From: Silvibacterium sp.
GTDB taxonomy: Bacteria; Acidobacteriota; Terriglobia; Terriglobales; Acidobacteriaceae
Direction of reading: 5' to 3'
DNA: 63,572 nucleotides
Assembly: GCA_019234945.1 (NCBI GenBank)
Contig: JAFAKX010000136.1
Location: 1 to 63,572, forward strand
The notes under the pieces: generated by a model
Database searches by the model: none
What the model saw: only the letters and a program-made list of their open reading frames with translations
Told to the model about the DNA's origin: nothing
Made by a program: the position numbers and the translations under genes
Shown: positions 17,743 through 62,107 of the stretch, piece by piece
Position numbering within the stretch: the stretch's first letter is position 1
How the letters are laid out: the number at the start of each line of letters is the position of its first letter

Positions 17743-17846
17743 CTGATTGCGCTGTCGGCCTGCTCTCTTGACGTCGTAGGGTATTTACGAACCAAGATCA
17801 AGAACTTATTCAATCCGGCCCGCTTCGCGACAAGGAGATCTGTTGA

Positions 17847-18239: not shown

Positions 18240-18299
18240 CAAAGCGTCGCGGCCCACGAAGGCCGCCATCACTGCCGGTCTTTAGCAACAACGCGCGAA

Positions 18300-18419
18300 A
18301 TTGGGTTGTGTTGCCGCGAGGTAGAAAGCCTGAACCTCGGATTCCCGACTGCGAAAGCTGAAAAGACAGCCGAGCGCAGCACGCTAGCGTCGAACGCAAC
18401 ACAGACCACCGTGTTGTAG
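18300..18419 (+). pseudogene. Possible remnant of a third small secreted protein (C-terminal tail)
   Basis: In one plus frame ending at a TAG (18417-18419) the text reads ...REVESLNLGFPTAKAEK and then a Thr/Ala/Ser-rich tail of 17 residues. This resembles the end of the protein at 10903 (REILCSNADMDLALPVSKAEK then a polar tail). No start or signal peptide is left. Either a decayed paralog or the former 3' end of 17847-18239 after a frameshift; weak evidence. Confidence 0.3.
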
Positions 18420-18446
18420 GTGAATAAGCAACCGGCTCTGATGAAA

Positions 18447-18474
18447 AGCGCGGACTTAGGTCCGCGCTCTTCTT
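18447..18474 (+). terminator. Rho-independent terminator
   Basis: AGCGCGGAC (18447-18455), loop TTAG, GTCCGCGCT (18460-18468), then CTTCTTTT. Perfect 9-base stem ending the 17847 transcript. The remaining bases to 18641 show no intact gene. Confidence 0.88.
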
Positions 18475-18641
18475 TTGCGGACTCCGCCAGCCTGATTTTT
18501 GTAAAATTCTTGTGACGTCACTTTATCCGCAATACCATGGTCTGCACAGGGTAAGGGCACGTCTTTTGCTGGCTTCCCGGAGTCGTATCCCGAGAGTCGA
18601 ACTGTTTTGCTGGGCGCGCCTTTCAAGTAAGCCTGCTTCTT

Positions 18642-19907
18642 TTGTTTCCAAGATCGTTGGAGGGTTGGCGCGCGTTTCTGGGTACGCTTAAAAGCAACGG
18701 TATCTTTACGGTTAGCCGCTGGTATAGCCCGGCAAACCTGAACGAAACGGGCCGTATGGTTGGCCTTGCAACAGCGGCATTGCTTGATAGCGGGGTGAAG
18801 GACGCCCGCCCCTACCTCTTCGTGGCGACCGCCAATCACATTGCCACCCTGGTGTTGTCGAAGACACCTTTCACCGAGGAGCAACTGCGTATACTGCATG
18901 ACGTGGTAAGTACCGGCGGCTTCAAGGTTCTGCTGGCGCCCGACACTCCCCCGGATTCGACCCTGTTGCGCCAGGCAACGGAGAGCAGTGATCTCAGAAC
19001 CCTCAATCGCGCGCTGAACACCTCCTATCTTGATCTCGAGGTACCTACGGACGCCCGTCCGTTCTTCTTCAATCAATTGCGTATCTTTGATATCCCTCAG
19101 TTGGTCACGGTCGTGCGCCTGTTCTTGAAGGGCGAGATCAAGCAGGGCATTATCTCGGGCAATCTGATTGCTTCGTGCGCGCTCATCATGATTCTCTTCA
19201 TTTCAATCGTCGCAGTCATTGCGACAATTCTGATACCGCTCCGGGGGGCGGTGCGGGAATCTCAGCCGCGCCTGATTACGACCGGCAGCCTGTATTTTTC
19301 GTTTATCGGTATGGGCTTTATGCTGGCTGAGATCGCACTCCTGCAATATTTCAGCGTGTATCTGGGCCATCCCATCTACTCGCTTGGTGTATGCCTGTTC
19401 AGTTTGATTCTGGCATCCGGCCTGGGAAGCCTGACGTCGGACCGGCTCAAGCTCAACACGCGCGGCAGGCTGTTGACATGGGGAATGATTGTGACAGCGT
19501 ACCTGGTCATCATGGAGCAGATTCTGCCTATCGTCTTCCAGTCCACAACCGACCGCGAACGGTTGGTGCGCATCGGCATCGCGCTTGCCGCGATCATGCC
19601 CCTGGGATTTCTGCTGGGATTTGCTTTTCCCACTGGTATGCGCCTGGTAGAGGCGGTAGATAAAGGACCGACCCCGTGGTTCTGGGGCATCAACGGTGCC
19701 ACCGGCGTGCTCGCGTCCGTGCTCGGGGTGATGCTGAGCATGTCTTTTGGCATCAATCTGACACTACTGATTTCCGCGACCTGCTATTTCATGCTCATCC
19801 CGGTCAGCTTCGCTCTTTTCGGTCTACAACAACAGACCACGGTCCTTGGGGCTGCTTCCGGGGTGCAACTTTCGCGGAGCGAGGGCTACGTGGAGCCGGC
19901 GAAGTAG
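18642..19907 (+). pseudogene. N-terminally truncated multi-TM spermidine-synthase-like protein
   Basis: The 421-residue open frame begins at a poor TTG in the middle of a domain: SLEGWRAFLGTLKSNGIFTVSRW is the end of a SAM-binding methyltransferase/spermidine-synthase fold, followed by VPTDARPFFF (usually TDDRPFFF) and seven or so transmembrane helices (e.g. LIASCALIMILFISIVAVIATIL). Known relatives are around 800 residues, with N-terminal helices and the SAM-binding half, all missing here; upstream, in-frame sequence runs to a TAA at 18552-18554 without homology. No ribosome site. I read it as the 3' part of a broken gene; a functional short form cannot be excluded. Confidence 0.7.
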
Positions 19908-20040
19908 ATTGAACTGCCCTATGGATTGACAATGTGGCGCGCACGCAATGAACTGACCGGGGTTCGGTTCCCCACCTCATTGCGCCGCTTCGTCACAGAA
20001 TGCTTGCTGCCATGGTTTTGCGCCTTCTACTGTTTGGCGC

Positions 20041-44403: not shown

Positions 44404-44883
44404 TCAGTATTCAGTCTTCTCCGGTGTGTCGATCCAGAGCTGAAAGCTTTGCCACGCTTCGTCGGAGAGGATCTGCCGCAAGGGCACCGAGCGCGCGTCG
44501 CGGTGCAGTCGGATTTCCTCGTAGAAGTAGGAGTCGTCGAAGCCGGCTCGCGCCGCGTCGTTGCTGTCGCTGCCGAAGTAGATGGCGTCGATGCGGGCCC
44601 AGTAGATGGCCGCCAGGCACATGGGGCAGGGCTCGCAGCTTGTGTAAATGTCGCAGCCCTTGAGGGTGAAGGAGTTCAGGGCACGGCAGGCATTGCGGAT
44701 CGCGTTGACCTCAGCGTGAGCAGTCGGATCCTTTGTGCTCGTCACGCTGTTCGCGCCTTCGCCGACGATCTCGCCGTCCCGGACGATCACCGCTGCGAAT
44801 GGCCCTCCTTTGCGGGAGCGGACATTCTCGACGGCCAGTTGGATAGCTCGCTGCATGAAAACAGGGTTGGGATCAGACGGCAT
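44404..44883 (-). CDS. guaD: Guanine deaminase (cytidine deaminase fold)
   Basis: 159 residues. Zinc deaminase motifs HAEVNAI (ligand His and catalytic Glu) and SCEPCPMCLAAIYWARID (two ligand Cys). PTAHAEVNAIRNAC together with the C-terminal FYEEI and the overall size match Bacillus-type GuaD rather than tRNA adenosine deaminase. It converts guanine to xanthine and ammonia. Divergent from the allantoinase gene with only 42 bases between starts, so a shared control region with the purine operon is likely. Confidence 0.9.
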   Translation of the reverse strand: MPSDPNPVFMQRAIQLAVENVRSRKGGPFAAVIVRDGEIVGEGANSVTSTKDPTAHAEVNAIRNACRALNSFTLKGCDIYTSCEPCPMCLAAIYWARIDAIYFGSDSNDAARAGFDDSYFYEEIRLHRDARSVPLRQILSDEAWQSFQLWIDTPEKTEY

Positions 44884-44925
44884 CTGCGTTTTCTGGCCTT
44901 GCTCTTTGGGATTGAGGGCGGAATC

Positions 44926-46287
44926 ATGGACAGTATGGCACAGGCATTCGTCTCGGAGCGCGTGGTGACGCCGCAGGGCATTCGCGCGGCTGCGGTTCTG
45001 GAAGATGAGGGCAGGATTCGCGGGCTGTGCTCGCGGGAGGAAATTCCACCCGACTATGCCGTGCTTGATTTCGGCGACCTCGCCATCCTTCCCGGTCTAG
45101 TCGATAGCCATGTGCACATCAACGAGCCGGGCCGCACTGAATGGGAAGGCTTCTGGACGGCGACTCGGGCCGCGGCGGCGGGTGGTTACACGACTCTGAT
45201 CGACATGCCGCTCAACTGCCTGCCGGAGACGACGACGGTTCCGGCGCTTGAGGCCAAGCGCGAAGCGGCGCAGGGGAAGTGCTTCGTCGACTGGGCGGCG
45301 TGGGGCGGCGTGGCCGGCGACAACTGGGAGCACATCGAACCGCTGGCCCGGGCCGGGGTGAAAGGCTTCAAGTGCTTCCTGATCTATCCGGGATGCAAAG
45401 GCTTCGAAATGGTGACGCGCGAGCAACTCGAGCGGTCGTTGCCGCACGTCGCGCGGACGGGGTTACCGTTGCTGGTGCATGCTGAGCTTTCCGGCCCGAT
45501 TGAGGACGCTGCAGCAGCGCTCAACGGAGCGGATGGGGGCGCGGACTGGCGGTGCTATCAGACGTACCTGCAGTCGCGTCCGGATGAGGCAGAGCTGTTG
45601 GCGATCGGGCTGCTTCTGGGTTTGTGCCGGAAGTATCAATTTCGGCTGCACATTGTGCACTTGGCGACTGCGCTCGCGCTGAGGGACCTCCGTGCGGCGC
45701 GGCGGGAGGGACTACCGGTGACGGTGGAGACCTGTCCACATTATCTCCACTTTGCGGCCGAGGAGATCGCGGATGGCAGCATGCTGCACAAATGCGCGCC
45801 GCCTATCCGCAGCCGGGACAACCGCGAGCGCCTTTGGAGCGCTGTATGGAATAAGGACATCGATCTGGTGGCGACCGACCATTCGCCGTGTCCTCCCCAG
45901 ATGAAGCGGCAGGATATAGGCCACTTCGACCAGGCTTGGGGCGGAATCGCGAGCCTCTCAGTCGCGTTGTCCGTGATATGGACAGGCCTGCCGGCGCGGG
46001 GCCTGGCTTTAGGCGATGTGGCGCGGCTGATGGCGGAGAAGCCGGCAGTGCTTGCCGGAATCGACCAGCGCAAGGGCAAGATTGCACCCGGCTTCGATGC
46101 GGATCTGGTGGTCTTCGACCCGGAAACTGAGTTTGAAGTGACCGCCGATCACTTGCATACGCGGCACCGCATATCGCCGTATGTTGGCGAGCGGCTGCTC
46201 GGCCGGGTTGTCGCGACCTATGTACGCGGTCGGGAGGTGTTCCGCGAAGGCGAGTTTGCGCCAGAGCCTTTTGGAATTGAGGTTTGA
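44926..46287 (+). CDS. allB: Allantoinase
   Basis: 453 residues from the ATG at 44926 behind GAGGGCGG (a second ATG is three codons on). Amidohydrolase-superfamily motifs: LPGLVDSHVHINEPGRTEWEGF, GGYTTLIDMPLN, KGFKCFLIYPGC (carboxylated Lys), LLVHAELSGPI, LHIVHLAT, VETCPHYLHF and VATDHSPC. The DMPLN and HINEPGRTEWEGF segments identify allantoinase rather than hydantoinase. It hydrolyses allantoin to allantoate. First gene of the plus-strand purine-catabolism operon. Confidence 0.94.
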   Translation: MDSMAQAFVSERVVTPQGIRAAAVLEDEGRIRGLCSREEIPPDYAVLDFGDLAILPGLVDSHVHINEPGRTEWEGFWTATRAAAAGGYTTLIDMPLNCLPETTTVPALEAKREAAQGKCFVDWAAWGGVAGDNWEHIEPLARAGVKGFKCFLIYPGCKGFEMVTREQLERSLPHVARTGLPLLVHAELSGPIEDAAAALNGADGGADWRCYQTYLQSRPDEAELLAIGLLLGLCRKYQFRLHIVHLATALALRDLRAARREGLPVTVETCPHYLHFAAEEIADGSMLHKCAPPIRSRDNRERLWSAVWNKDIDLVATDHSPCPPQMKRQDIGHFDQAWGGIASLSVALSVIWTGLPARGLALGDVARLMAEKPAVLAGIDQRKGKIAPGFDADLVVFDPETEFEVTADHLHTRHRISPYVGERLLGRVVATYVRGREVFREGEFAPEPFGIEV

Positions 46288-46391
46288 GGACTCCGTAGTA
46301 TGATGAGGCAATTTCCTTGAAGCGAAGCTGGGAGACTCTGGAAGCTTACGGGGCCTTGGCGGCCTTCACGCTGGCGGGTAAAGGAGAGAGG

Positions 46392-48650
46392 ATGCAGAGC
46401 GAGCGCGTTGTCGGCCAGCCGGTCTTTCGCAAGGAGGGGCTTGCGAAGGTGCTGGGTGCGGCGCGCTACATCGATGACCTCTCGATGCCGGGAATGATCT
46501 ATGGCGCAACCGTACGGAGCGCCATTCCGCGCGGCCGCGTGCTCGGGATCGAATTTAGCCCGGGCATTCCGTGGGACGAGTTCACGATCGTTACGGCGAA
46601 GGACATCCCCGGCAAGAATTACATCGCAATGATCAATAACGATTGGCCATGCCTAGTCGATGGCGTCGTCAATCATCCGCAGGAGCCGATTCTGCTTCTG
46701 GCCCATCCGGACCGACATCTGCTCCCGCAGGCTGTGGCCGCGGTTCACGTCCGCTATGAAGAGATGTCATCGGTGCACTCGATCGAAGAAAGCGAGCGCG
46801 GCCGGACAATCATCTGGGGCGAGGACAATGTCCTCAAGTCGTATCTGCTGGAGAAGGGAGATGTGGATGCGGCGTTCGCCCAACCGGACATCATCATCGT
46901 CGTAGGCGAGTACACGACCGGGGCGCAGGAGCACCTCTACATCGAGAACAACGGCGCGATCGCCATGTATGACGAACATGCTGGCGTTACCCTGTGGGGA
47001 TCGCTGCAGTGCCCGTTCTATGCGCACAAATCTCTGATGGCCGTGACTGGCCTGCCCGAGGACAAGGTGCGCGTCATCCAGGTGGAAACGGGCGGGGCAT
47101 TTGGAGGCAAGGAAGATTACCCATCGATGATCGGCGCCCACGCGGCTCTGCTGGCCATGAAGTCGGGCCGTCCGGTGAAGATTGTGTACGACCGCGCGGA
47201 GGACATGGCGGCGACGACGAAGCGGCATCCGTCACGCACGCGGCATCGCACGGCGGTGACGAAAGACGGCAAGCTGCTGGCGGCGGATATCGAGTTGTGC
47301 CTCGATGGCGGGGCGTATTCGACCCTGTCGTCTACGGTGCTCTCGCGGGCGACGATCCACTCCGGCGGAGCGTATTTCTGGCCGAACATCCGCGTGCGGT
47401 CGAAGGCGTATGCGACCAATACGCCTCCCCACGGGGCCTTTCGCGGGTTCGGTGCACCGCAGGCGTTGTTCGCCACCGAGCGGCACATGGATCGCGTGGC
47501 GAAAGCGGTAGGACTCACGCCCGAGGAGTTCCGGCGGCGCAACCTGCTGCTCACCGGAGAGACGACGAGCACGGGGCAGGTGATCCGGCAGCAGATCGAT
47601 CTCCAGGGCTGGATGGAACGTGCGCTGGATTGTGCGAATTACCGCGAGAAGAAGGCTCGTTTTGATCGCGAGAACCCAGACGGTGTGCGCAAGAAGGGCA
47701 TAGGGTTTGCGGTGTTTCTCCACGGCTCAGGGTTCACCGGCTCAGGCGAGCGCTACCTGAATTCGCTGGTCGGCGTGGATGCTACGGCAGAAGGGCGCAT
47801 CCGCGTGCTGGTTTCAAGTACGGAGTTTGGGCAGGGAACGAACACGATCTTATGCCAGATCGCTGCCGAGACCCTGGGTGTGGACTACGACGTGGTCGAG
47901 ATGGCTCCGCCAGACACCGGCATCGTGCCCAACAGCGGGCCCACCGTGGCCTCGCGCACGGCGATGGTCGTGGGTCGCCTTGTGCAATCAGCTGCGCTGG
48001 GCCTGAAGCAGACGCTGATCGCAAGCGGGCTGTTAGGCGAACGGTATTTAACGGAAGAGTTCCAGGCAGCGGCGAAGGCGCATATCGGCAAGCACGGCGG
48101 CCTGTGTTCGATGAGCCGCTACCAGGCGCCTCCCGATGTTTACTGGGATGACCAGACGTATCGCGGAGAGGCGTATGCCGCGTATGCGTGGGCCGTATAT
48201 GTCGCCGAGGTCACAGTCGAAGTCACGACCTATTCTGTAGCAGTCGATGACTTTGTTGCCCTACAGGAGGTCGGGCGGGTGTTGAATCCGGTGCTGGCGA
48301 CGGGGCAGGTCGAGGGCGGAGTGGCGCAGGGCATCGGATATGCGCTCTACGAGAAAGTGTCCTGGGACCGTGGGCTGATGAAGAACAATCAGATGACCAA
48401 CTACATCATTCCCACTTCGCAGGATCTGCCGAAGATTCGCGTCTATTTCGAGGAGGTTCCGTTTGAACATGGGGCTTACGGCGCGAAGGGTATCGGCGAG
48501 TTGCCGATGGATGGGCCAGCGCCTGCGATCCTGAATGCGATTGCCCACGCAACCGGCGAGGATTTCAATGCAATTCCGTTGCTGCCCGAGGACATTGCCG
48601 AGCGCCTTGCCGCGGGTGCTCCGGCTGCGCAGGAGATGGCGACCGTATGA
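46392..48650 (+). CDS. Xanthine dehydrogenase, molybdopterin-binding subunit
   Basis: 752 residues from the ATG at 46392 (AAGGAGAGAGG in front). Xanthine oxidase-family large subunit: VVGQPVFRKEGLAKVLGAARYIDD, EYTTGAQEHLYIENNGAIA, GGAFGGKEDYPS (molybdopterin contact), NTPPHGAFRGFGAPQALFATE, VLVSSTEFGQGTNTILCQIAAE and HGAYGAKGIGELPMDGPAPAI with the catalytic Glu in GIGE. It oxidises hypoxanthine to xanthine to urate. Its end overlaps the 2Fe-2S subunit gene (ATGA). About 100 bases after allB. Confidence 0.92.
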   Translation: MQSERVVGQPVFRKEGLAKVLGAARYIDDLSMPGMIYGATVRSAIPRGRVLGIEFSPGIPWDEFTIVTAKDIPGKNYIAMINNDWPCLVDGVVNHPQEPILLLAHPDRHLLPQAVAAVHVRYEEMSSVHSIEESERGRTIIWGEDNVLKSYLLEKGDVDAAFAQPDIIIVVGEYTTGAQEHLYIENNGAIAMYDEHAGVTLWGSLQCPFYAHKSLMAVTGLPEDKVRVIQVETGGAFGGKEDYPSMIGAHAALLAMKSGRPVKIVYDRAEDMAATTKRHPSRTRHRTAVTKDGKLLAADIELCLDGGAYSTLSSTVLSRATIHSGGAYFWPNIRVRSKAYATNTPPHGAFRGFGAPQALFATERHMDRVAKAVGLTPEEFRRRNLLLTGETTSTGQVIRQQIDLQGWMERALDCANYREKKARFDRENPDGVRKKGIGFAVFLHGSGFTGSGERYLNSLVGVDATAEGRIRVLVSSTEFGQGTNTILCQIAAETLGVDYDVVEMAPPDTGIVPNSGPTVASRTAMVVGRLVQSAALGLKQTLIASGLLGERYLTEEFQAAAKAHIGKHGGLCSMSRYQAPPDVYWDDQTYRGEAYAAYAWAVYVAEVTVEVTTYSVAVDDFVALQEVGRVLNPVLATGQVEGGVAQGIGYALYEKVSWDRGLMKNNQMTNYIIPTSQDLPKIRVYFEEVPFEHGAYGAKGIGELPMDGPAPAILNAIAHATGEDFNAIPLLPEDIAERLAAGAPAAQEMATV

Positions 48651-49132
48651 GCATGCGGGAGTTTTCTCTCCGGGTGAATGGTGTAGAGCGGATAGTGAGC
48701 GCGCCGCCGATGGCGCGGCTGCTCGATGTACTGCGTCAGGAACTCGGGCTTACGGGCACCAAAGAAGGCTGTGGCGAGGGCGAGTGCGGGTCGTGTTCGG
48801 TGCTGATCAATGGAGAGCTGGTCAACAGTTGCCTCGTGCCGATTGCGCAGGCGGCGGGGACTTCGATCACAACGATTGAGGGCGTCGGAGCGCACACAAA
48901 GCTGCATCCAGTGCAGCAGGCTTTTCTCCAGTGTGGAGGAGCGCAGTGCGGCATCTGCACGCCGGGCATGATTCTGGCGGCTGTGCATCTGCTCGAAAAG
49001 TGCCCCAATCCAACGCGCGAGCAAATCGAAGAGGGTCTGAACGGAAACCTCTGCCGGTGTACAGGCTATATGCGAATCTTCGCAGCGGTGGAGAAGGCCG
49101 CAACCACGATTGAGGCGGGTGTGCCTGGATGA
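48647..49132 (+). CDS. Xanthine dehydrogenase, [2Fe-2S] subunit
   Basis: 161 residues. Plant-type cluster GCGEGECGSCSVLING (four Cys with the last in LVNSCLVP) and the second cluster CGGAQCGICTPG...CRCTGY. It carries electrons from the molybdopterin to the FAD subunit. ATGA overlaps with both neighbouring genes imply stoichiometric synthesis. Confidence 0.94.
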   Translation: MSMREFSLRVNGVERIVSAPPMARLLDVLRQELGLTGTKEGCGEGECGSCSVLINGELVNSCLVPIAQAAGTSITTIEGVGAHTKLHPVQQAFLQCGGAQCGICTPGMILAAVHLLEKCPNPTREQIEEGLNGNLCRCTGYMRIFAAVEKAATTIEAGVPG

Positions 49133-50013
49133 GGTCTTGTTCCGCCGAGTGTGAGCTTCTGACTCCGGGAAGCCTCGAGGCTGTTCTGTGCCTGCTGCAT
49201 GACGAGCCTGGCCTGTGGACGCCGATTGCGGGCGGCACGGAAATCATGGTGCTTTATGGAGCGGGGAAGCTCACGGAGCGGAAGTTCGTGAGCATTGCCG
49301 TTCCAGAGTTGCGCGAGATTACTGAAGATGGAGGCTGGATTTCGGTCGGCGGAGGCTGCAGCTTTACGCAGATCCGGAGGCATGTGGGGATTCAGAAGCA
49401 TTTTCCAATGCTCGCGCAGTGCGCCTCGTGGCTTGGCGGGATCGCCAATCAGAATCGCGGGACTATCGGTGGCAATCTGGCGAATGCTTCGCCGGCGGCA
49501 GACTCACCGCCCGCGCTGTTTGCCTATGGCGCAGAGCTGGAACTGATCTCGGCGCGCGGAAAGCGGCGGATTCCGTACGAAGAGTTCCATCTGGGATACA
49601 AGAAGACGGCGTTGGCTCTCGATGAGCTGATTGGCACGGTGCTTCTGCCCAAACGTTTCGATGATTCACTCCGTTATGTGCGCAAGGTCGGGACGCGCAA
49701 TGCCCAGGCCATCTCGAAGATCTGCATGGCGGCGACTGCTACGGTGAAACATGGCCACGTCGAGGAGATTCGGATCGGAATGGGCAGCGTGGCGCCAACT
49801 CCGCTGCGGCTTGCAGCAACGGAACGGGCGCTTATGGGAACAGAACTGACTGATGCGGCGATCCTAAATGTGGTGATTTGGGAGGCGCGCAGAGCGCTCG
49901 CGAGCGAGACCGCTCCGATCGACGACATTCGGTCGACGGCGGCCTACCGCACGCTGGTTGCCGGGAACCTGCTCGAAGAGATGCTGCGGACATTCGCGGG
50001 AGCGGCGAGGTGA
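49129..50013 (+). CDS. Xanthine dehydrogenase, FAD-binding subunit
   Basis: 294 residues. CO-dehydrogenase-flavoprotein fold: LWTPIAGGTEIMV (FAD contact), WISVGGGCSFTQI, GGIANQNRGTIGGNLANASPAADSPPALFAYGAE (second FAD-binding stretch) and RKVGTRNAQAISKICMAATATV in the C-terminal domain. It passes electrons to NAD or another acceptor. Third subunit of a three-gene dehydrogenase; overlaps the 2Fe-2S gene (ATGA) and the uraD gene (GTGA). Confidence 0.93.
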   Translation: MRSCSAECELLTPGSLEAVLCLLHDEPGLWTPIAGGTEIMVLYGAGKLTERKFVSIAVPELREITEDGGWISVGGGCSFTQIRRHVGIQKHFPMLAQCASWLGGIANQNRGTIGGNLANASPAADSPPALFAYGAELELISARGKRRIPYEEFHLGYKKTALALDELIGTVLLPKRFDDSLRYVRKVGTRNAQAISKICMAATATVKHGHVEEIRIGMGSVAPTPLRLAATERALMGTELTDAAILNVVIWEARRALASETAPIDDIRSTAAYRTLVAGNLLEEMLRTFAGAAR

Positions 50014-50522
50014 ATCCGGTGCTCGAGCGCTGGAATGGGCGAACGGAGAATGAGGCCGCGGAGGAAATCCTTCCCTGTGGCGGATCACGCCGCTGGGCGC
50101 GTGCACTGGCGGACCTGAGACCATTTGCGGACGCCGCGTCGCTGTTGGAACAATCGGACGGGATCTGGAACCGAGTCGATTTACTGGACTGGGACGAAGC
50201 GTTCGCAACCCACCCTCGGATCGGCGATAAGAAGGCTCCGGCCTCCGCTACGACGAAGTCGGCCGCGTGGTCGAGCCAGGAGCAAAGCGGAGTCGCAGGG
50301 GCTGCAGACGATATACAGGAGCGACTCAGGCAAAGGAACGAGGAGTATGAGCGGCGCTTCGGGCGGACCTACATTGTCTGCGCGACGGGCAAGTCCGCCG
50401 AAGAGATGTTGGCGATTCTCGAGCAGCGGCTCCAAAACGATGACGCGGCCGAACGCCGCGAGGCAGCCGAGCAGCAGAGGCAGATTTCCAGACTTCGGCT
50501 GAGAAAGTGGCTCGAACTGTGA
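50010..50522 (+). CDS. uraD: OHCU decarboxylase
   Basis: 170 residues from a GTG at 50010 that overlaps the stop of the preceding gene (GTGA). ILPCGGSRRWARALADLRPFADAASLLEQSD, WDEAFATHPRIGDKKA (catalytic His/Glu region HPRIG), WSSQEQSGV and LRQRNEEYERRFGRTYIVCATGKSAEEMLAILEQRL are the family hallmarks. It decarboxylates 2-oxo-4-hydroxy-4-carboxy-5-ureidoimidazoline to S-allantoin, the last step from urate. Confidence 0.93.
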   Translation: MNPVLERWNGRTENEAAEEILPCGGSRRWARALADLRPFADAASLLEQSDGIWNRVDLLDWDEAFATHPRIGDKKAPASATTKSAAWSSQEQSGVAGAADDIQERLRQRNEEYERRFGRTYIVCATGKSAEEMLAILEQRLQNDDAAERREAAEQQRQISRLRLRKWLEL

Positions 50523-50860
50523 GCGGGATCTCGACGCATATCCTGGACATTTCACGAGGGCGACCCGCCGATGGGGTACAGGTTACGCTGGAGCGGAGCG
50601 ATGGAGGCGACTGGCATGAGATCGCAACACAGGTCACGGACGATGATGGGCGTGTGAAGCGGCTGCTCCCTGTACACAAGCCGCTGCAAAGCGGCCAATA
50701 CCGGCTCACGTTTCACACTCAGGCCTATTTCGATGCCCTCGGTGTTGAGGGACTCTATCCTGTCGTGCAGATAACCATCACGACTACAGATAGCGGGGGA
50801 CACTACCATATCCCGCTGCTGCTGACGGCGAATGGCTACTCCACTTACCGGGGAAGTTGA
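50519..50860 (+). CDS. uraH: 5-hydroxyisourate hydrolase (transthyretin-like)
   Basis: 113 residues from the GTG at 50519, which overlaps the uraD stop (GTGA) and gives the usual SGISTHILD beginning; a GTG at 50507 is open but less apt. LDISRGRPADGVQVTLER holds the catalytic His/Arg region, YPVVQITI and HYHIPLLLTANGYSTYRGS with the invariant YRGS terminus complete the active site. Hydrolyses 5-hydroxyisourate to OHCU. Confidence 0.94.
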   Translation: MSGISTHILDISRGRPADGVQVTLERSDGGDWHEIATQVTDDDGRVKRLLPVHKPLQSGQYRLTFHTQAYFDALGVEGLYPVVQITITTTDSGGHYHIPLLLTANGYSTYRGS

Positions 50861-50861
50861 T

Positions 50862-51716
50862 ATGGCGATTGTTCTTGGCGAAAACCGTTACGGTAAATCT
50901 CGCGTGCGCGTCATGAAGGTGCAGCGCGAGGGCGCCCGGCACGAGGTCTTCGAGTGGAACGTCGAGGTGTGGCTGGCCGGGGACTTCCGGAGCTGCTTTG
51001 AAGACGGTGACAACAGTTGCATCCTGCCGACCGATACGATGAAGAACACTGTCTACTCGCTGGCGCGGGATTGCTCCGCCGCATCGATGGAGGATTTCGG
51101 CATCGAGCTGGTTTCGCACTTCATCGAGACGAACTCCCATGCAGATTCGGCAGGCGTGCGCATCGTGTCCACGCCTTGGAAGCACATCGACGGCTTTTCG
51201 GATGCGTTCACGCACGCAAGCGACAAATATGACACAACTGCGGTTACGTTATCCCGAGATGGTCTCCATTCTGTTTCCTCAGGATTTGAGAAGCTGTGGC
51301 TTCTGAAGACCGCAAAGTCGGCCTTTGCTGGCTACATGAACGATCGACTGACCACGCTCAGGGAGACGCAGGACCGGCTTTTTGGCACGCTGGCAACGGG
51401 GGAATGGCGCTATACAGGGACGGATCTCGACTACAACGCGTTGCGGCGGCGCATCGAGTCGGCTCTAGTTACAACCTTTGCCGCGCACGACAGCCTTTCA
51501 GTGCAGCAGACACTCTATGCGATGGCAAGGGCTGCGCTCGACCAGGTGAACGAAATCGCGGATGTTCATCTCCAGATGCCGAACAAGCACTGCAACCTCG
51601 TGGATCTGGCGCCTTTCGGGCAGGACAATCCGAATGAGATTTTTGTGCCTACGGATGAGCCGCACGGATCGATCGAAGCACGGGTCGGCAGGACCGATGA
51701 TCGCTGGAAAGAATGA
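50862..51716 (+). CDS. uox: Urate oxidase (cofactor-free uricase)
   Basis: 284 residues from the ATG at 50862 (GGGGAAG in front); it begins one base after the uraH stop. GENRYGKSRVRVMKV, LPTDTMKNTVYSLAR (catalytic Thr-Lys-Asn relay), GFEKLWLLKTAKSAFAGYMND, and MPNKHCNLVDLAPFGQDNPNEIFVPTDEPHG (conserved His and Asn) are uricase signatures. It turns urate, O2 and water into 5-hydroxyisourate and H2O2. ATGA overlap with the next gene. Confidence 0.95.
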   Translation: MAIVLGENRYGKSRVRVMKVQREGARHEVFEWNVEVWLAGDFRSCFEDGDNSCILPTDTMKNTVYSLARDCSAASMEDFGIELVSHFIETNSHADSAGVRIVSTPWKHIDGFSDAFTHASDKYDTTAVTLSRDGLHSVSSGFEKLWLLKTAKSAFAGYMNDRLTTLRETQDRLFGTLATGEWRYTGTDLDYNALRRRIESALVTTFAAHDSLSVQQTLYAMARAALDQVNEIADVHLQMPNKHCNLVDLAPFGQDNPNEIFVPTDEPHGSIEARVGRTDDRWKE

Positions 51717-53017
51717 GAACAATGCTCGCAGGCCACACGGCCAGAACTGAAACGGATTTCGACTCTATCGCCGCTACCGCCCTGGCGCGCTGCGACATGC
51801 TCGCCAAGTGCTCGGACGAGCCGGGGCAGATCACGCGAACGTTTTTATCTCCTGCGATGGAACGATGTAACCGCCTTGTGCAGGAATGGATGCGGTCCGC
51901 CGGCATGATAACCAGTTTCGATCGCGTGGGAAATCTGCGAGGCTACTACGCGGCGTCATCCGAGGATGCGCTTCGACTCATCATCGGCTCGCATCTTGAT
52001 ACAGTTCCGAATGCCGGGCGCTATGACGGCGTACTGGGCGTGATGCTCGGCATTGGGCTGGTAGAAGCGCTCGCTGGCCGGCGCTGTGGTTTCGGCATCG
52101 ATGTGATCGGCTTCTCCGACGAAGAGGGCGTGCGCTACGGATTGCCTTTTATCGGTAGCCGCGCGGCGACGGGAACGCTCCTTGCACCGCACCTGGCGCG
52201 CCGCGATGCGGACGGCATTGCGATGTATGCAGCCCTCGACGCTTTTCAGAACGCATATCCGGACGTGGTCGATGCAGGGCTTGATCCGCGTGCACGTGCG
52301 TACCTTGAATTCCATATCGAGCAGGGACCTGTGCTCGAACATGCCGGCCTGGCGCTCGGAGTCGTTGAGACCATCGCAGGACAGAGCCGCGCGACAGTCG
52401 CGTTCCGGGGCAGGGCTGGACATGCCGGAACGACGCCGATGTTTCTGCGCCGGGATGCGCTGGCCGCGGCAGCAGAGTGGCTCACGGCCGTCGAATCGGC
52501 AGCATCGTCAATGCCCGGGCTGGTAGCGACCACGGGGCGTATCTCGTGTGAGCCGGATGCAGCCAATGTGATTCCGGGTCTGGTCCGATGCAGCCTGGAT
52601 GTGCGCCATGCAGATGATGCGATCCGGCGGGCCGCTGTGGAGGATTTTCTGCGGACGGCAGACGCGATTGGAAATCGCCGCGAGATCGAGGTCGAGCGCG
52701 TTGTTGAATATGAGCAGGCTGCTGTCAGGTTGGATCGCACTCTCGTCGCCCTGGCCGACCAGGTCGTTTCCGAGGTGGGTGTTTCTCCGCGGCACATGAC
52801 GAGCGGCGCGGGCCACGACGCGATGATTATGGCCGCATGTGTTCCATCAGTAATGTTTTTTCTTCGCAGCCCGGGTGGAATCAGCCACCATCCGGATGAG
52901 GCGGTGTATGCGGAGGATGTTGCGATGGCGCTCCGTGCGGGGATTCGATTCTTAGAGAGATTCGAGGCTCATCTCGATCAACTCAGCGAAAGCGAGCGGA
53001 AATCTTGCACCACTTAG
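51713..53017 (+). CDS. allC: Allantoate amidohydrolase (M20 family)
   Basis: 434 residues. Zn/Mn peptidase-like M20 fold: LIIGSHLDTVPNAGRYDGVLGVMLGIGLVEAL, IDVIGFSDEEGVRYGLPFIGSRA, AYLEFHIEQGPVLE, GRAGHAGTTPM (dimerisation His), MTSGAGHDAMIMA and RSPGGISHHPDEAV. The order and spacing match AllC, which converts allantoate to (S)-ureidoglycine, CO2 and ammonia. Overlaps urate oxidase and the ureidoglycine aminohydrolase gene. The paralog at 53745 is the second M20 enzyme of the same operon. Confidence 0.9.
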   Translation: MRTMLAGHTARTETDFDSIAATALARCDMLAKCSDEPGQITRTFLSPAMERCNRLVQEWMRSAGMITSFDRVGNLRGYYAASSEDALRLIIGSHLDTVPNAGRYDGVLGVMLGIGLVEALAGRRCGFGIDVIGFSDEEGVRYGLPFIGSRAATGTLLAPHLARRDADGIAMYAALDAFQNAYPDVVDAGLDPRARAYLEFHIEQGPVLEHAGLALGVVETIAGQSRATVAFRGRAGHAGTTPMFLRRDALAAAAEWLTAVESAASSMPGLVATTGRISCEPDAANVIPGLVRCSLDVRHADDAIRRAAVEDFLRTADAIGNRREIEVERVVEYEQAAVRLDRTLVALADQVVSEVGVSPRHMTSGAGHDAMIMAACVPSVMFFLRSPGGISHHPDEAVYAEDVAMALRAGIRFLERFEAHLDQLSESERKSCTT

Positions 53018-53748
53018 GCCTGACACGCAGCGTGCGTCGTGCGAATCACGCGCTGCACACGCCGGATGCGTTTATCCGGACACAGATTCCCGGCATGTCG
53101 AAGGCGGCGGCCGTCGTACACGCCTCGCCTGCGCTGGGTGCCGCGTTCACGCAGTACACCGCTGAAATGGAAGCAGGCGGGAGGCTGGGAGCGTGTCTCC
53201 ACCAGCGATTCTTATTTGTGCTTGAGGGCGCGGTTGAGGTCTCGGTCGGCCCCGGGTATGAGCTGCTCGTGAAAGGCGACTACGCGTACCTCCCCGAAGC
53301 GACGGCACATGATGTGATGGCATCCGAACCGTCGCGTCTGGCGGTGATCGAAAAGGCTTACCAGAAGCTGCGTGGGGTGACGGCGCCGGAACCCATCTTT
53401 TCGAGTGAGGCGAAAATCGGGGGGCAGCCCCTGATGGGTGATCTGGATCTGATTGTCCGCAGCTTGCTGCCTGATACCGTGGCGTTCGACTTCGCCGTAA
53501 ACACCATGACTTATCAGCCTGGCGCGGGTCTGAGCATGGTCGAGGTCCACGTGATGGAGCACGGTCTGCTGATGCTCGAAGGCGGGGGCATTTACCGGCT
53601 CGATGAACAGTGGTATCCCGTCACGGCGGGCGATTTTATCTGGATGGGCCCGTACTGCCCGCAGTGGTTTGGGGCGATCGGGAAGACACCGGCGAAATAT
53701 CTTATCTACAAAGATTGGAACCGGCACCCTCTTGTTCAGACGAAATGA
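53005..53748 (+). CDS. allE: (S)-ureidoglycine aminohydrolase (bicupin)
   Basis: 247 residues from a TTG at 53005; the family N-terminus (HHLGLTRSV-R-NHAL.TPD) is complete only with this start, overlapping the allC stop by 13 bases. Two cupin domains: ACLHQRFLFVLEGAVEVSVG with PEATAHDVMA in the first, and GLSMVEVHVMEHGLLMLEGGGIYRLDEQWYPV with GDFIWMGPYCPQWF in the second (Mn ligands Glu, His, His, Gln-type). It removes ammonia from (S)-ureidoglycine to form ureidoglycolate. Confidence 0.9.
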   Translation: MHHLGLTRSVRRANHALHTPDAFIRTQIPGMSKAAAVVHASPALGAAFTQYTAEMEAGGRLGACLHQRFLFVLEGAVEVSVGPGYELLVKGDYAYLPEATAHDVMASEPSRLAVIEKAYQKLRGVTAPEPIFSSEAKIGGQPLMGDLDLIVRSLLPDTVAFDFAVNTMTYQPGAGLSMVEVHVMEHGLLMLEGGGIYRLDEQWYPVTAGDFIWMGPYCPQWFGAIGKTPAKYLIYKDWNRHPLVQTK

Positions 53749-55013
53749 AGATCGACATTGACCAACAACGACTGAATGGCGAAATTGATGCCCTGGCTGC
53801 GTTTTCCGATGCGGAAGCGCCGGCGGTCACGCGCGTCGTATTCAGTGAGCAGGACCTCAGAGCGCGAGCGTGGCTGAAGGAGCGCTTCGCCGAAGCGGGG
53901 CTCGCAGTCCGCGAAGATGCTGTGGGCAACACCTTTGCGCGGTGGCAGGGCACGAACCTCGACTTGCCCGCCGTCGCAACCGGGTCCCATGTGGACGCGA
54001 TTCCCCACGCGGGCAAATACGACGGCGTGGTCGGTGTGCTCGGCGGCCTGGAAGCCATTCGCGCGCTGCAGCGGGCCGGGTTCAGGCCCGACCGGTCGAT
54101 CGAGTTGATCATGTTCACCTCGGAGGAGCCGACCCGCTTTGGTTTGGGCTGCCTGGGGAGTCGGCTGATGTCCGGAATATTGAAGCCCTTTGCTGCAGCA
54201 GCTCTGCGCGATGCCGAGGGCCAGACGCTCGACACGGTCCGGCAACAGGCCGGCTTTCATGGATCACTCGAGAGTGTGAGGGTGGCACCGGGAACCTATT
54301 CCGGGTTTGTTGAACTGCACATCGAGCAGGGGCCGATCCTCGATCAACAGAAAAGGGAACAAGAGAAGGTTCCGCTGGGGCTGGTCACGCACATTGCGGC
54401 GCCCGCGAGTTCCCAGATCACGATCGAGGGTGAGGGCGGCCACGCCGGCGCGCGGCTGATGCCAGGTCGGCGCGATGCGCTATGCGCGGCGTCCGAGATA
54501 ATCCTTGCGGTGGAGCAGGCGGCGTTGAGCACCGGCGCAATCGACACTGTCGGGACAGTGGGCATCTGTCGGGTGCATCCGGGGGCGGTGAACTCCATAC
54601 CGTGCCGCGTGCAGTTGTCGCTTGACGTGCGGGACACGGACGCGGCGCGGCGCGACCGCGTGCAGGCCGAGATCGAGGCGGCAGTTCGCGAAATCGGCAA
54701 GCGCCGTGGGGTATCGGTGAACATTGAGGTGATTAATTCCGATCCTCCAGCGGAGTCGTCGCCGGAGATACTCACTGCCCTGACAACTGCCTGCGAGGCC
54801 GAGGGGATCGCCTACCGAAGGATGGTGAGCCGGGCGTATCACGACTCCTCGTTCATGTCGCGGATTGCCCCAATTGCGATGCTGTTTATTCCGTGCCGGG
54901 GAGGCGTGAGCCATCGCGCGGACGAGTATTCGTCGCCTGAGGAAATCGGCCAGGGCGTCCGGGTGCTCGCGCGGACACTGGCGATGCTTGCAGGTGGTGG
55001 GCGGCCGGTTTGA
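53745..55013 (+). CDS. M20 amidohydrolase, probable ureidoglycolate amidohydrolase
   Basis: 422 residues from the ATG at 53745 (ATGA overlap). Same M20 fold as AllC but divergent: VATGSHVDAIPHAGKYDGVVGVLGGLEAI, IELIMFTSEEPTRFGLGCLGSR, GFVELHIEQGPILDQQ, GEGGHAGARLMPGRRDAL, SRAYHDSSFMSRIAP and CRGGVSHRADEYSS. SEEPTRFG (rather than DEEGVRYG) and its place after the ureidoglycine aminohydrolase gene favour ureidoglycolate amidohydrolase (glyoxylate, CO2 and 2 NH3). A duplicated allantoate amidohydrolase is the alternative. Last gene of the operon. Confidence 0.82.
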   Translation: MKIDIDQQRLNGEIDALAAFSDAEAPAVTRVVFSEQDLRARAWLKERFAEAGLAVREDAVGNTFARWQGTNLDLPAVATGSHVDAIPHAGKYDGVVGVLGGLEAIRALQRAGFRPDRSIELIMFTSEEPTRFGLGCLGSRLMSGILKPFAAAALRDAEGQTLDTVRQQAGFHGSLESVRVAPGTYSGFVELHIEQGPILDQQKREQEKVPLGLVTHIAAPASSQITIEGEGGHAGARLMPGRRDALCAASEIILAVEQAALSTGAIDTVGTVGICRVHPGAVNSIPCRVQLSLDVRDTDAARRDRVQAEIEAAVREIGKRRGVSVNIEVINSDPPAESSPEILTALTTACEAEGIAYRRMVSRAYHDSSFMSRIAPIAMLFIPCRGGVSHRADEYSSPEEIGQGVRVLARTLAMLAGGGRPV

Positions 55014-55071: not shown

Positions 55072-55638
55072 ATGTTCATCCCTGTGCTCGATCTGGAAAA
55101 AGAGCAAGTCCGGTTCGATGTTGCCCTCGAGCCGGGCGCCATCGACTTCGGCGCGGAAGCCCATCAGAAGGGTCCGCTGACTGTGAAGGGGCAGGCCGAC
55201 CTGATCGAAGAAAAGCGGATAGGTGAGACCCGTGGATCGCTGCGAACCGTCGAGGACATCCGTCTAAGGGGAAGTTACCAGGGAGAGTTCGAGATCCCGT
55301 GCGCGCGGTGTCTGGATCCGGTCGCGCACTCGCTCAAGGGCGACTTTGACCTGCTGTTTCGTCCGCTGGGCGCTGACGCCAATTCCTCCGAGCGATCCAT
55401 TACGACGCCGGAGACGGAAATCGGTTATTATCAAGATGGCGGTCTTGCGCTTGAAGATGTCGTGCGGGAGCAGGTGTTTCTATCCCTGCCTGCACGTTCG
55501 CTTTGCGGCGAAGACTGCAAGGGAATCTGCCCGCGCTGCGGCAAAAACCTGAACTCCGAATCATGCACCTGCGATACGACTCCGGTCGATCCGCGGTGGT
55601 CGGCGCTTTCAGACTTGGCCAGCCGGATGAAGACATAA
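55072..55638 (+). CDS. yceD: DUF177 protein (YceD)
   Basis: 188 residues; ATG at 55072. Residues 1-125 form the DUF177 fold with CARCLDPVAHS, followed by an acidic linker and the usual C-terminal end LSLPARSLCGEDCKGICPRCGKNLN with four Cys able to bind zinc. YceD is tied genetically to 23S rRNA maturation and is nearly always immediately before rpmF, as here (79 bases). Confidence 0.9.
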   Translation: MFIPVLDLEKEQVRFDVALEPGAIDFGAEAHQKGPLTVKGQADLIEEKRIGETRGSLRTVEDIRLRGSYQGEFEIPCARCLDPVAHSLKGDFDLLFRPLGADANSSERSITTPETEIGYYQDGGLALEDVVREQVFLSLPARSLCGEDCKGICPRCGKNLNSESCTCDTTPVDPRWSALSDLASRMKT

Positions 55639-55717
55639 ATCGACGGCTCACCCGGCCGGCGTCTGTGGGACGCGAGAGGAGGCGGGTGACGAGCCGGAGC
55701 AAGGAAAGGAATCTGCA

Positions 55718-55903
55718 ATGCCTAACCCAAAGCGGCGCCACTCGAAGGCCCGCACCTCCAAGCGCCGTGCACACGATGCGCTGACCTCTGCCAGTCTCTC
55801 AGAGTGCCCCAACTGTCATGAGCGCAAGCTTCCGCATCGCGCCTGCCCGAAGTGCGGTTCCTACAAGGGCCGCGAAGTGCTCGAAGTCAAGGAAGCAAGC
55901 TAG
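55718..55903 (+). CDS. rpmF: 50S ribosomal protein L32
   Basis: 61 residues, ATG behind AAGGAAAGGA. PNPKRRHSKARTSKRRAHDAL at the N-terminus and a CPNCHERKLPHRACPKCGSYKGREV zinc ribbon (four Cys present, the zinc-binding C+ form). Located between yceD and plsX, the conserved order. Confidence 0.97.
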   Translation: MPNPKRRHSKARTSKRRAHDALTSASLSECPNCHERKLPHRACPKCGSYKGREVLEVKEAS

Positions 55904-55912
55904 CCTCGCTCG

Positions 55913-56956
55913 ATGCTGATCGACATCGCTCTCGATGCCATGGGGTCCGACAAGGCCCCGGACCCGGAAATTCGGGGAGCGATCCTTGCTTGCCGCCAGT
56001 TGCCGGTAAGGGTACACCTCGTGGGGCCCGAGGACGTGCTGCGGCGCGGTCTTTCGGCGGCGCTCGACGGCGAACACCTGCCGATCAACATTGTGCATGC
56101 CAGCGAGCACATCGGCATGGACGAGAAGGCGGCGCATGCCGTCCGTACCAAGCGCGATAGCTCGATGCGTGTCGGGCTGAAGCTTGTTCGCGAGAAGAAA
56201 GTAGCAGGTTTCATTACGGCGGGTAATACCGGTGCCGCCATGGCTACGGCCAAGATGGTGTTGGGGGCGCTGCCAGGCGTGGACCGGCCGGCGCTGACGA
56301 TCGTTGTGCCGACGCTATCGGGTACGCCTTCCATCCTGCTCGATGTAGGCGCGAACGTCGACTGCAAGCCGCAAAACCTGGAGCAGTTCGGCGTGATGGG
56401 CGAGCTCTATGCGCAGAGTGTGCTCAAGATCACTCGTCCCCGCGTGGGAATCCTCTCGGTCGGCGAGGAAGAGGGCAAGGGCAACGACCTGACGCGCGAA
56501 GCTTACGCGCTGTTGAAGCAGCTGCCGATCAACTTTATCGGCAATGTCGAGGGCCGGGACATCTACAACGGTCGCTGCGACGTTATCGTCTGCGACGGGT
56601 TTGTCGGCAATGTCGCTCTCAAGACCTCCGAGGGGCTGACGAAGCTGGTGCGGGAAATGCTGAAGACGTCTTTGAACACTACCGTCACGGCGCAGGTCGG
56701 CGCGCTGCTTTCGCGCAAGGCTTTTAACGCTTTCAAGAAGCGGCTCGATCCGGCGGAGTACGGCGGGGCCCCCCTGCTCGGAGTTCGCGGCGTATGCATC
56801 ATCGGGCATGGGTCTTCGAACGAACGGGCAATCATGAACGGTATCCGCGTGACCGCCGAGTTTGCCCAGGCGGGCATCAATGAGCGCATCGAGCGCGAGT
56901 TCACCCAGAGGCCTCAGCCGCTTGGAGCGAATCCGGTCGGGATTGCGCTGCAGTAG
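55913..56956 (+). CDS. plsX: Phosphate acyltransferase PlsX
   Basis: 347 residues. IALDAMGSDKAPDPEIRGA, GFITAGNTGAAMATAKMVLG, RPALTIVVPT, LLDVGANVDCKP, NFIGNVEGRDIYNGRCDVIVCDGFVGNVALKTSEGL and GVCIIGHGSSNERAIMNGI are all conserved PlsX segments. It converts acyl-ACP to acyl phosphate for phospholipid synthesis. It follows rpmF by 9 bases. A run of nine C (56967-56975) lies just past the stop. Confidence 0.97.
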   Translation: MLIDIALDAMGSDKAPDPEIRGAILACRQLPVRVHLVGPEDVLRRGLSAALDGEHLPINIVHASEHIGMDEKAAHAVRTKRDSSMRVGLKLVREKKVAGFITAGNTGAAMATAKMVLGALPGVDRPALTIVVPTLSGTPSILLDVGANVDCKPQNLEQFGVMGELYAQSVLKITRPRVGILSVGEEEGKGNDLTREAYALLKQLPINFIGNVEGRDIYNGRCDVIVCDGFVGNVALKTSEGLTKLVREMLKTSLNTTVTAQVGALLSRKAFNAFKKRLDPAEYGGAPLLGVRGVCIIGHGSSNERAIMNGIRVTAEFAQAGINERIEREFTQRPQPLGANPVGIALQ

Positions 56957-60736: not shown

Positions 60737-60823
60737 GCCGAAGTGGCGGAATTGGCAGACGCGCATGGTTCAGGTCCATGTACTCGCAAGGGTGTGGGGG
60801 TTCGAGTCCCTTCTTCGGCACCA
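60737..60823 (+). tRNA. tRNA-Leu (anticodon CAG)
   Basis: GCCGAAG (60737-60743) pairs with CTTCGGC (60813-60819), then A and an encoded CCA. The anticodon stem CATGG/CCATG encloses TTCAGGT, giving anticodon CAG, and a long variable arm (TACTCGCAAGGGTGT) marks a class II tRNA. TTCGAGT forms the T loop. Its 3' end is the likely integration site of the element to the right. Confidence 0.95.
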
Positions 60824-60895
60824 GCAAATAAACGTTTTTTTTCAATCTGCTGCAAAGCGTTGTACGTTAATTAGCAGCCTTGTACACTCTGCAGC

Positions 60896-62107
60896 ATGGC
60901 TCGTCGCACACCCAAACCTGCGCTTTTCTGGCACCATAAACCGTTCGGCTCTACAACGTGGCGCTACCTGCGCCTGACCGATGATCCAACCACGGACCTC
61001 GGCTATCTCCACGCGCAGTATCCCCAACTACACCCTCCGGGCCGTTTCGTAATCCGTACCTACGTCAACGGAAAGCGTCAGTACAAGCCAGTCGAAGGTC
61101 ACCCACATGACGGCACGCCCTTCAATGAAACACAGGCCGCGCTCGACGATGCCATCTTGGACGCCAGAGCGGAAGCCAAGTTGGAAGCGAAGTTACAGGC
61201 AGCACTGGCATCCCTCGGGGTGGCCTCGCAGGAGCCACGCAGTGGGAAAGGAAACGGTAGCTCATCCCTGCAATCGTCCTTAGACGCCTACGTGGACAAT
61301 CGTCGTGACCATCAGAAGCTGGAGGCTGCTCAAAATGCAGCTCTGGTACTCCGTGAGTTCACTCAAGCGAATCCGTCACTGGCTACCGTCAAGGGAATCC
61401 GTAAGGAGCACGTAACGGCGTATTGCAACTGGCTTCGCGCCAAGGGTGACCAGTCAGACCGTACTATCGCGAACAAGTACCAACGCGTCCGCGCCTTCCT
61501 TCGCTGGGCCAAACACGACGTCGGACTTGATGTCCACGAACGGCCAACGTACACGAAGAGCATCCCCAAGACCTACACATCATCAGAAATTGCCGCATTA
61601 TTAGCAGCAGCCTCCGCTGACGAATTCATGCTGGTGGCAATCACGATCATGCTCCGTCTAGGTCTCAGGATGCAGGAAGCCGCACATGCTGAGTGGTCAG
61701 ATATTCGCGGTCGTGTGTTCGTCGTACGCGACAAACCGCAGTACGGGTTCCGCGTTAAAGATAAAGAGCAACGCGAAATCCCCATCCCGTCAGACGTGGC
61801 AGCCCTACTCAGTGTCTGGCAGAGCCGCAACCGCCCAGGTACGTTAATTCTCGGCGTCGGCAAGGATGGCCACCCCACCCGCCATCTATACCGTCGTTTT
61901 CAAGTGATAGCAAGAAAGGCCGGAGTGCCGAACGCCACACAGCATCAGCTACGGCGGAACTACATCACGACGATGGCAAACTCAGGCTTCGCGATGTCTA
62001 CTGTACAGGCGTGGGCTGGCCACTCCGACTTGGCCTCCACCATGAGATACCTTCGGCCAGCGTCCGCACAAGAAATGCTGGACAAGGTGGATGCCGTCAA
62101 GTTCTGA
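60896..62107 (+). CDS. Tyrosine recombinase (phage/ICE-type integrase)
   Basis: 403 residues, ATG at 60896. An N-terminal DNA-binding part (RRTPKPALFWHHKPFGSTTWRYLRL) and a SAM-like core-binding domain (about residues 120-225) precede the catalytic domain: RLGLRMQEAAH (Arg), RVKDKEQREIPI (Lys), QHQLRRNYIT (His-x-x-Arg), AGHSDLASTMRYL (His and nucleophile Tyr near residue 384). All catalytic residues present, so it should be active. Next to the tRNA-Leu it reports integration of a phage, satellite or genomic island. Codon use and its A+T-rich patches differ from neighbours. Confidence 0.93.
   Translation: MARRTPKPALFWHHKPFGSTTWRYLRLTDDPTTDLGYLHAQYPQLHPPGRFVIRTYVNGKRQYKPVEGHPHDGTPFNETQAALDDAILDARAEAKLEAKLQAALASLGVASQEPRSGKGNGSSSLQSSLDAYVDNRRDHQKLEAAQNAALVLREFTQANPSLATVKGIRKEHVTAYCNWLRAKGDQSDRTIANKYQRVRAFLRWAKHDVGLDVHERPTYTKSIPKTYTSSEIAALLAAASADEFMLVAITIMLRLGLRMQEAAHAEWSDIRGRVFVVRDKPQYGFRVKDKEQREIPIPSDVAALLSVWQSRNRPGTLILGVGKDGHPTRHLYRRFQVIARKAGVPNATQHQLRRNYITTMANSGFAMSTVQAWAGHSDLASTMRYLRPASAQEMLDKVDAVKF

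Follow-up and report, generated by a model that had tools for sequence, protein, structure and literature searches.

A predicted purine-to-glyoxylate operon with a hydrolytic, ammonia-only ureide branch in Silvibacterium sp. and related Acidobacteriaceae

We analysed a stretch of 63,572 nucleotides from Silvibacterium sp. (hereafter the window), which is the entire contig JAFAKX010000136.1 of assembly GCA_019234945.1, and concentrated on a cluster of purine and ureide genes at its positions 44404-55013. The assembly is 72% complete (3.5 Mb in 256 contigs), and whatever we report as absent from this genome is to be read against that figure. Throughout, G labels sampled genomes, L the DNA stretches that we fetched and C contigs, the window being C223. 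Our analysis indicates that the cluster is very probably a catabolic operon converting purine bases to glyoxylate, CO2 and ammonia. Its last gene, at 53745-55013, encodes an M20-family protein that we assign to (S)-ureidoglycolate amidohydrolase (UAH) from similarity scores, phylogeny and signature residues.

The cluster consists of ten genes on the plus strand, from allB to UAH (44926-55013), whose starts were chosen from the sequence itself. The first, allB, encodes an allantoinase (44926-46287; TIGR03178, 509.9 bits for a cut-off of 357.85). It is followed by three genes for a probable xanthine dehydrogenase (XDH): xdhL for the molybdopterin subunit (46392-48650; PF02738, PF20256 and PF01315), xdhS for the [2Fe-2S] subunit (48647-49132; PF01799 and PF00111) and xdhM for the FAD subunit (49129-50013; PF00941 and PF03450). 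The next three genes are uraD, an OHCU decarboxylase with a GTG start (50010-50522; TIGR03180, 165.2 bits for a cut-off of 139.4; PF09349), uraH, a 5-hydroxyisourate hydrolase also starting with GTG (50519-50860, with 50507 as a possible start; TIGR02962, 135.5 bits for a cut-off of 87.45), and uox, a cofactor-free uricase (50862-51716, with 50832 as a possible start; TIGR03383, 288.5 bits for a cut-off of 168.4; 221 bits with the solved uricase 7f2v). UAH is preceded by two further genes of the ureide branch. One encodes an M20-family allantoate amidohydrolase (AAH) with an SGAGHDA motif (51713-53017; NF006775, 530.6 bits for a cut-off of 479), and the other a bicupin (S)-ureidoglycine aminohydrolase (UGHY) with a TTG start (53005-53748; TIGR03214, 267.7 bits for a cut-off of 200).

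Two deaminases would feed this set. The guanine deaminase gene guaD (44404-44883, minus strand; CDA fold, PF00383) is divergent from allB, the two starts being separated by 42 bases. Its best solved matches are the guanine deaminases 1wkq and 1tiy, which we take to be from Bacillus, at 178 bits (the next match scores 107.5), and it exceeds the cut-off of no NCBIfam model, the best being TadA with 73.7 of 150 bits. The adenine deaminase gene ade (5248-6948, minus strand; TIGR01178, 586.6 bits for a cut-off of 472.5) is a distant feeder, about 37 kb from the cluster, and the score confirms the name given to it in a preliminary description of this DNA. That description also presented the enzymes as collinear and overlapping by ATGA or GTGA. 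All of them were found approximately where it had placed them, and six of the nine junctions between allB and UAH are such 4-base overlaps, but guaD does not belong to the collinear series. At the remaining junctions AAH and UGHY overlap by 13 bases, uraH and uox are 1 base apart, and allB is separated from xdhL by 104 bases. This last gap counts against a single transcript: because it parts allB from the other genes, there may be two. A promoter-like TTGAGG-16-TATGAT (46277-46304, plus strand) runs from the end of allB into the gap, and the number of such sites is no better than chance (2 in the region for 2.6 expected from shuffled sequences). The same scan for terminator-like sites gave 10 for 7.0 expected (standard deviation 2.9).

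Taken together, these genes suggest the following pathway. Ade would convert adenine to hypoxanthine and GuaD guanine to xanthine, from which the three-subunit molybdenum XDH would make urate. Uricase, UraH and UraD would carry urate to (S)-allantoin, which AllB would open to allantoate. AAH would then release ureidoglycine, CO2 and NH3, UGHY would turn ureidoglycine into (S)-ureidoglycolate and NH3, and UAH would split (S)-ureidoglycolate into glyoxylate, CO2 and two NH3. All four ureide nitrogens would thereby leave as ammonia and none as urea, which would fit a family where urease is rare. The earlier claim that the path from adenine or guanine to glyoxylate and ammonia is complete holds at the level of predicted functions: the full gene set from xanthine or hypoxanthine to glyoxylate is there, with guaD and ade feeding in.

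For the last step the preliminary description had pointed to the second M20 enzyme. The best solved match of this protein is the ureidoglycolate hydrolase 4pxe (444 bits), presumably from Arabidopsis; the best match that is not a UAH, an N-carbamoylase, scores 268 bits and the AAH 1z2l 184 bits. For comparison, the AAH of the cluster scores 210 bits with the same N-carbamoylase (3n5f), 190 with 1z2l and 179 with 4pxe. We built a tree of 55 M20 rows (53 different) selected from the sequences gathered in this analysis. The 29 UAH rows (27 different), including the single plant UAH, form a clade with support of 100/100 that excludes the 15 AAH rows from the clusters and 11 other M20 rows. The alignment contains seven columns in which UAHs (29) and AAHs (15) differ with no more than one exception. 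The residues R363, Y365, P129 and A85 are fixed in all the UAHs, and next to the catalytic HD every UAH has R and Y where every AAH has G and G. The residues H82, D93, E127, E128, H192 and H390 of UAH, which we assume from the M20 family to be metal ligands and the catalytic Glu, are common to at least 54 of the 55 rows. E127 aligns with the first E of the EEP motif, the position at which chain 4pxb departs from 4pxe.

Some of these comparisons can be read differently. Among the 25 listed of 29 NCBIfam families, the protein exceeds the cut-off of the broad TIGR01879 only, which tells against a specific assignment, and its nearest names, neither of which reaches its cut-off, are N-carbamyl-L-glutamate amidohydrolase with 388 bits and allantoate amidohydrolase with 386. 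On that basis the last gene could encode a second AAH or an N-carbamoyl amino-acid hydrolase, with ureidoglycolate decaying spontaneously or being split elsewhere. We consider this extremely improbable and rejected it, since its structural matches are led by a solved UAH with a wide margin, the tree and the residues set the protein apart from AAH, and two genomes with an allantoicase, in which we did not detect AAH, have retained UAH.

These two genomes, G104 and G110, belong to one genus and carry a variant of the pathway. They share with the window homologous xdhLSM, allB, a uraD domain, uraH and uox, as well as a UAH, but their clusters (L117 and L118, in the order xdhLSM, allB, allantoicase/UraD, uraH, uox) have an allantoicase-UraD fusion in place of AAH and UGHY, and their UAH is at a separate locus (L078 and L119; 59-60% identity). 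The UAH query had a single match in each genome at E<=1e-40, and the fetched stretches hold neither AAH nor UGHY; no genome-wide search for these two genes was made. Allantoicase yields ureidoglycolate directly. Hence, the presence of UAH in these genomes fits ureidoglycolate as the substrate, and its retention points to the activity that we predict for the cluster of the window. Allantoicase is rare (3 of 150 genomes), its model matched none of 14 control genomes, and the third genome encoding it, G142, has no match to the UAH query. The allantoicase and UraD domains lie in a single open frame in both clusters (L117 9299-10789, L118 9947-11437).

The preliminary description called the ureide branch plant-type. 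The hydrolytic steps are indeed the same and no lyase was found in the genome, but the label is misleading, because the plant UAH falls inside the bacterial clade, with two Pseudomonadales rows outside; this particular order has weak support (88/85), and the composition of the plant sequence is atypical. For the same reason the hydrolytic ureide route is not specific to plants: UAH is broadly bacterial. In a non-exhaustive pattern scan, the nearest UAH relatives among named contigs were on two contigs of a Silvibacterium sp. metagenome-assembled genome (85% and 80% identity), followed by other Acidobacteriaceae, which places the window in that family, and relatives at 51-59% identity were found in contigs of Verrucomicrobia, Planctomycetes, Chloroflexota and Pseudomonadales. 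We also considered plasmid-borne orthologues and rejected them. The search returned 1246 matching records, all below 60% identity (the best at 39.9% among the 15 rows listed), and three that we inspected were unannotated or in other contexts.

The assignment of the XDH is less secure, and here the scores weigh against our reading. The three subunits are below every NCBIfam cut-off: XdhL scores best with pucD (434 bits for a cut-off of 783.65), XdhS with pucE (178 for 254.3), both models presumably of Bacillus origin, and XdhM with XdhB (172 for 310). This is why we name xdhLSM a probable XDH. In addition, among solved structures XdhL scores higher with a nicotinate dehydrogenase subunit, its top match (276 bits), than with xanthine oxidase (252 bits). 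The enzyme could hence be a related molybdenum hydroxylase, acting on nicotinate or an aldehyde, and the pathway would then begin at urate. The lack of an orthologous XDH in 4 of the 14 UAH-bearing genomes tested would be in line with this. Yet Mo, 2Fe-2S and FAD subunits are all present by domain content, and in the alignment of XdhL with xanthine oxidase 1fiq_C the pocket residues Q, E, R, F-T and E, to which we assign the roles that we assume for them in 1fiq, are kept (motifs starting at 177, 238, 349, 446 and 701). The pocket Glu is replaced by other residues in nicotinate dehydrogenase and aldehyde oxidoreductase in the printed alignments. Moreover, xdhLSM sits between allB and uraD-uraH-uox, or next to uraD, uraH and uricase alone (L098), and the product of GuaD would need an XDH. 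A hydroxylase of another specificity thus seems very unlikely to us, and xanthine dehydrogenase is the probable function of xdhLSM.

An orthologue of this XDH was found in 10 of the 14 UAH-bearing genomes tested (9 of the 13 besides that of the window, at 62-75% identity) and in neither of the two UAH-lacking congeners tested. The four others, the congener G138 and genomes G060, G018 and G071, hold the cluster; the XDH segment is therefore an accessory part of it, a point against our reading. We fetched four separate XDH loci: L098 and three others that have XdhC- and MocA-like genes as neighbours.

We searched for the pathway in 150 genomes of the order, that of the window and 149 others. The UAH query matched 66 genomes, ten of which were dropped as they gave only matches at 31-36% identity (G043, G055, G063, G067, G072, G080, G095, G128, G134 and G140). 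This left orthologues in 56 genomes, including that of the window, a call made by identity (at least 57% for orthologues and at most 38% for the rest, among the matches listed). From the 55 other genomes with an orthologue we fetched the context in 20 relatives, mostly the best-scoring ones. Counts in these relatives are lower bounds because some stretches end at contig ends (e.g. L063 and L072), and they depend on identity thresholds that we set. AAH, UGHY and UAH occur together on the same strand in 19 of the 20; in L076 the pair AAH and UGHY is interrupted by an allantoinase-like gene. The genes found with UAH are allB (18), uraD (16), uraH (15), guaD (14), uox (12) and xdhLSM (9), besides a PuuD-type urate oxidase (3) and MocA (2). 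Since 19 relatives keep AAH-UGHY-UAH and 14 keep guaD divergent beside allB, the arrangement, judged from this conservation, is not due to chance.

The order of the blocks varies. That of the window (allB, then the xdh, ura and uox genes, then AAH-UGHY-UAH) recurs in L060, L062, L064, L067, L069 and L072. In L061, L063, L070 and L068, the last of which lacks xdh, the AAH-UGHY-UAH block comes before the block of xdh, ura and uox genes. Three of these stretches, L062, L064 and L067, come from one genus and have a PuuD-type urate oxidase in the position of uox (PF06181 in L062, by similarity in the others), which, as far as the sequences tell, is a non-homologous replacement that leaves the gene order unchanged. 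The cluster looks common in Acidobacteriaceae and ordinary there. Two observations were made along the way. In L061 a PreA-type dihydropyrimidine dehydrogenase and pyrimidine-catabolism-like genes (15600-19998) adjoin the purine cluster, and in contig C47 of G126 (L024 and L076) the UAH and AAH matches each contain one in-frame TGA in this assembly.

Growth on external purines would require uptake, and an active XDH its maturation; genes in other parts of the genome would provide both. The preliminary description noted that no purine transporter, regulator or XDH maturation factor is present and regarded this as unusual. None is found in the cluster of the window, but the second part of the claim is unsupported. 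Contig C167 carries an XdhC-family gene (PF13478, E 2e-34), for which the best NCBIfam model, an XdhC-related aldehyde oxidoreductase factor, is below cut-off. Contig C203 carries a MocA-like gene beside hydantoinase-like genes, these neighbours being named from sequence; the query for this search, a MocA-type protein, does not itself reach the NCBIfam cut-off (112 of 186 bits). In the stretch fetched from C203 (L115, 6671-11758), the MocA-like gene is near genes resembling hydantoinase and oxoprolinase subunits and an MFS transporter. Contig C91 encodes a 58% identical relative of an APC permease that adjoins the cluster in 5 of the 20 relatives; a PF00860-type permease does so in 3.

The search for the missing transporter and regulator, which had been suggested, was only partly successful: it returned the APC relative, but no regulator was identified, and neither a PF00860 purine permease nor PucR was found in the 72% complete genome, two absences that count against our reading. 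For PucR the absence is normal here because only 3 of the 150 genomes encode one over cut-off. No conserved regulator beside the cluster was recognised by eye in the 40 largest clusters of 301 neighbouring open reading frames from 34 loci, a weak negative given many antisense frames in GC-rich DNA. As for PF00860, its absence would suit a cluster for the turnover or detoxification of endogenous purines, or for supplying carbon, and not one that draws nitrogen from external purines. So would the observation that the only transporter recognised among the window proteins scanned is an MFS protein (14708-16111) with no link to purines. We think such an internal role unlikely. The genome is incomplete, PF00860 is present in 109 of the 150 genomes and in all three congeners sampled, and both the relative on C91 and the permeases kept beside the cluster in other genomes argue for uptake. 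That the window lacks transporter, regulator and maturation genes most plausibly reflects their dispersal together with an incomplete assembly.

We then considered the alternative ways of splitting ureidoglycolate and of using urea. The ureidoglycolate lyase family (PF04115) is absent from the genome of the window as assembled and present in 2 of the 150 genomes, G083 (L100) and G141 (L099). In both, a urease lies about 8 kb from the lyase-type gene and UAH is encoded elsewhere; the gene of G141 is over the Pfam cut-off and below all NCBIfam lyase cut-offs, so that its lyase activity is a candidate one. Urease is also rare. Raw matches were found in 44 of the 150 genomes (37 over the Pfam cut-off), and we counted only those covering the domain fully with E<1e-50, which left three genomes (G083, G133 and G141); the other matches were partial, with E of 1e-7 or weaker, and inside other open frames. 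It would be tempting to conclude that UAH replaces urease. However, urease occurs in 2 of the 56 genomes with UAH and in 1 of the 94 without, and its rarity, which does not track UAH, is on its own no argument for such a replacement: it is a feature of the family. One could go further and propose that Acidobacteriaceae recover all the nitrogen of purine ureides without urea or urease through a cluster of shuffled modules, that UAH, of common origin with the plant enzyme, is the means of dealing with ureidoglycolate in acid soils without urease, and that plants obtained UAH from a bacterial lineage. We offer this as a tentative scenario, more doubtful than probable.

The predicted route can be placed among known systems. 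It shares with that of Arabidopsis (AAH, UGlyAH, UAH) three hydrolytic steps, and its UAH and UGHY match 4pxe and 4e2q, the latter a ureidoglycine aminohydrolase that we also take to be from a plant; in contrast, the genes here, contiguous from XDH to UAH, form a predicted bacterial operon. The allantoin regulon of E. coli comprises AllB, AllC, AllE and AllA. The allantoinase, the M20 AAH and the bicupin UGHY have homologues there, whereas UAH is found here and the ureidoglycolate lyase family is not. UGHY scores 265 bits with 1sfn, a conserved hypothetical protein, 186 with 4e2q and 115 with ylbA (1rc6). The puc genes of Bacillus subtilis provide the best-scoring models for the large and iron-sulphur subunits of XDH, and GuaD matches solved guanine deaminases; the differences are the scores below the puc cut-offs, the absence of PucR from the assembled genome, the XDH maturation genes away from the cluster, and the presence of UAH. 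Rubrobacter xylanophilus also has clustered purine catabolic genes leading to glyoxylate, but uses a ureidoglycine carbamoyltransferase, and according to that report the classical enzymes from allantoate to glyoxylate were not found there (PMC4016543).

UAH in bacteria is already known. Excerpts of the literature place it in plants and bacteria (PMC6320678) and contrast it with the lyase, naming the Arabidopsis enzyme (PMC3793230). We read the cluster as a bacterial operon for a ureide route that would release ammonia only. In the accessible portions of the literature, including PMC10244434, we found no description of this pathway in Acidobacteria, most subscription journals lying outside the search, and the available text of PMC5900883 (24 acidobacterial genomes) and of PMC13362970 does not mention urea, purine, allantoin or uric. 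The cluster would provide a nearly complete genetic basis for the use of purine nitrogen in a major group of soil bacteria whose lineage is almost devoid of urease, and predicts that carriers would grow on urate or allantoin without forming urea. A further gain is a bacterial UAH family with a strong genomic context, which is useful since the nearest NCBIfam names (allantoate amidohydrolase, N-carbamoylase) would misname it.

Other features of the window lie outside the pathway. Downstream of UAH are yceD-like and plsX-like genes (55072-56956, plus strand; names from sequence), with the same neighbours in L057 and L059. A protein encoded at 249-1715 on the minus strand has DUF4062 and SIR2-like domains, a combination found in defence-type proteins. 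Finally, a tRNA-Leu(cag) gene followed by a phage-type integrase (60737-62107) likely marks an integration site.

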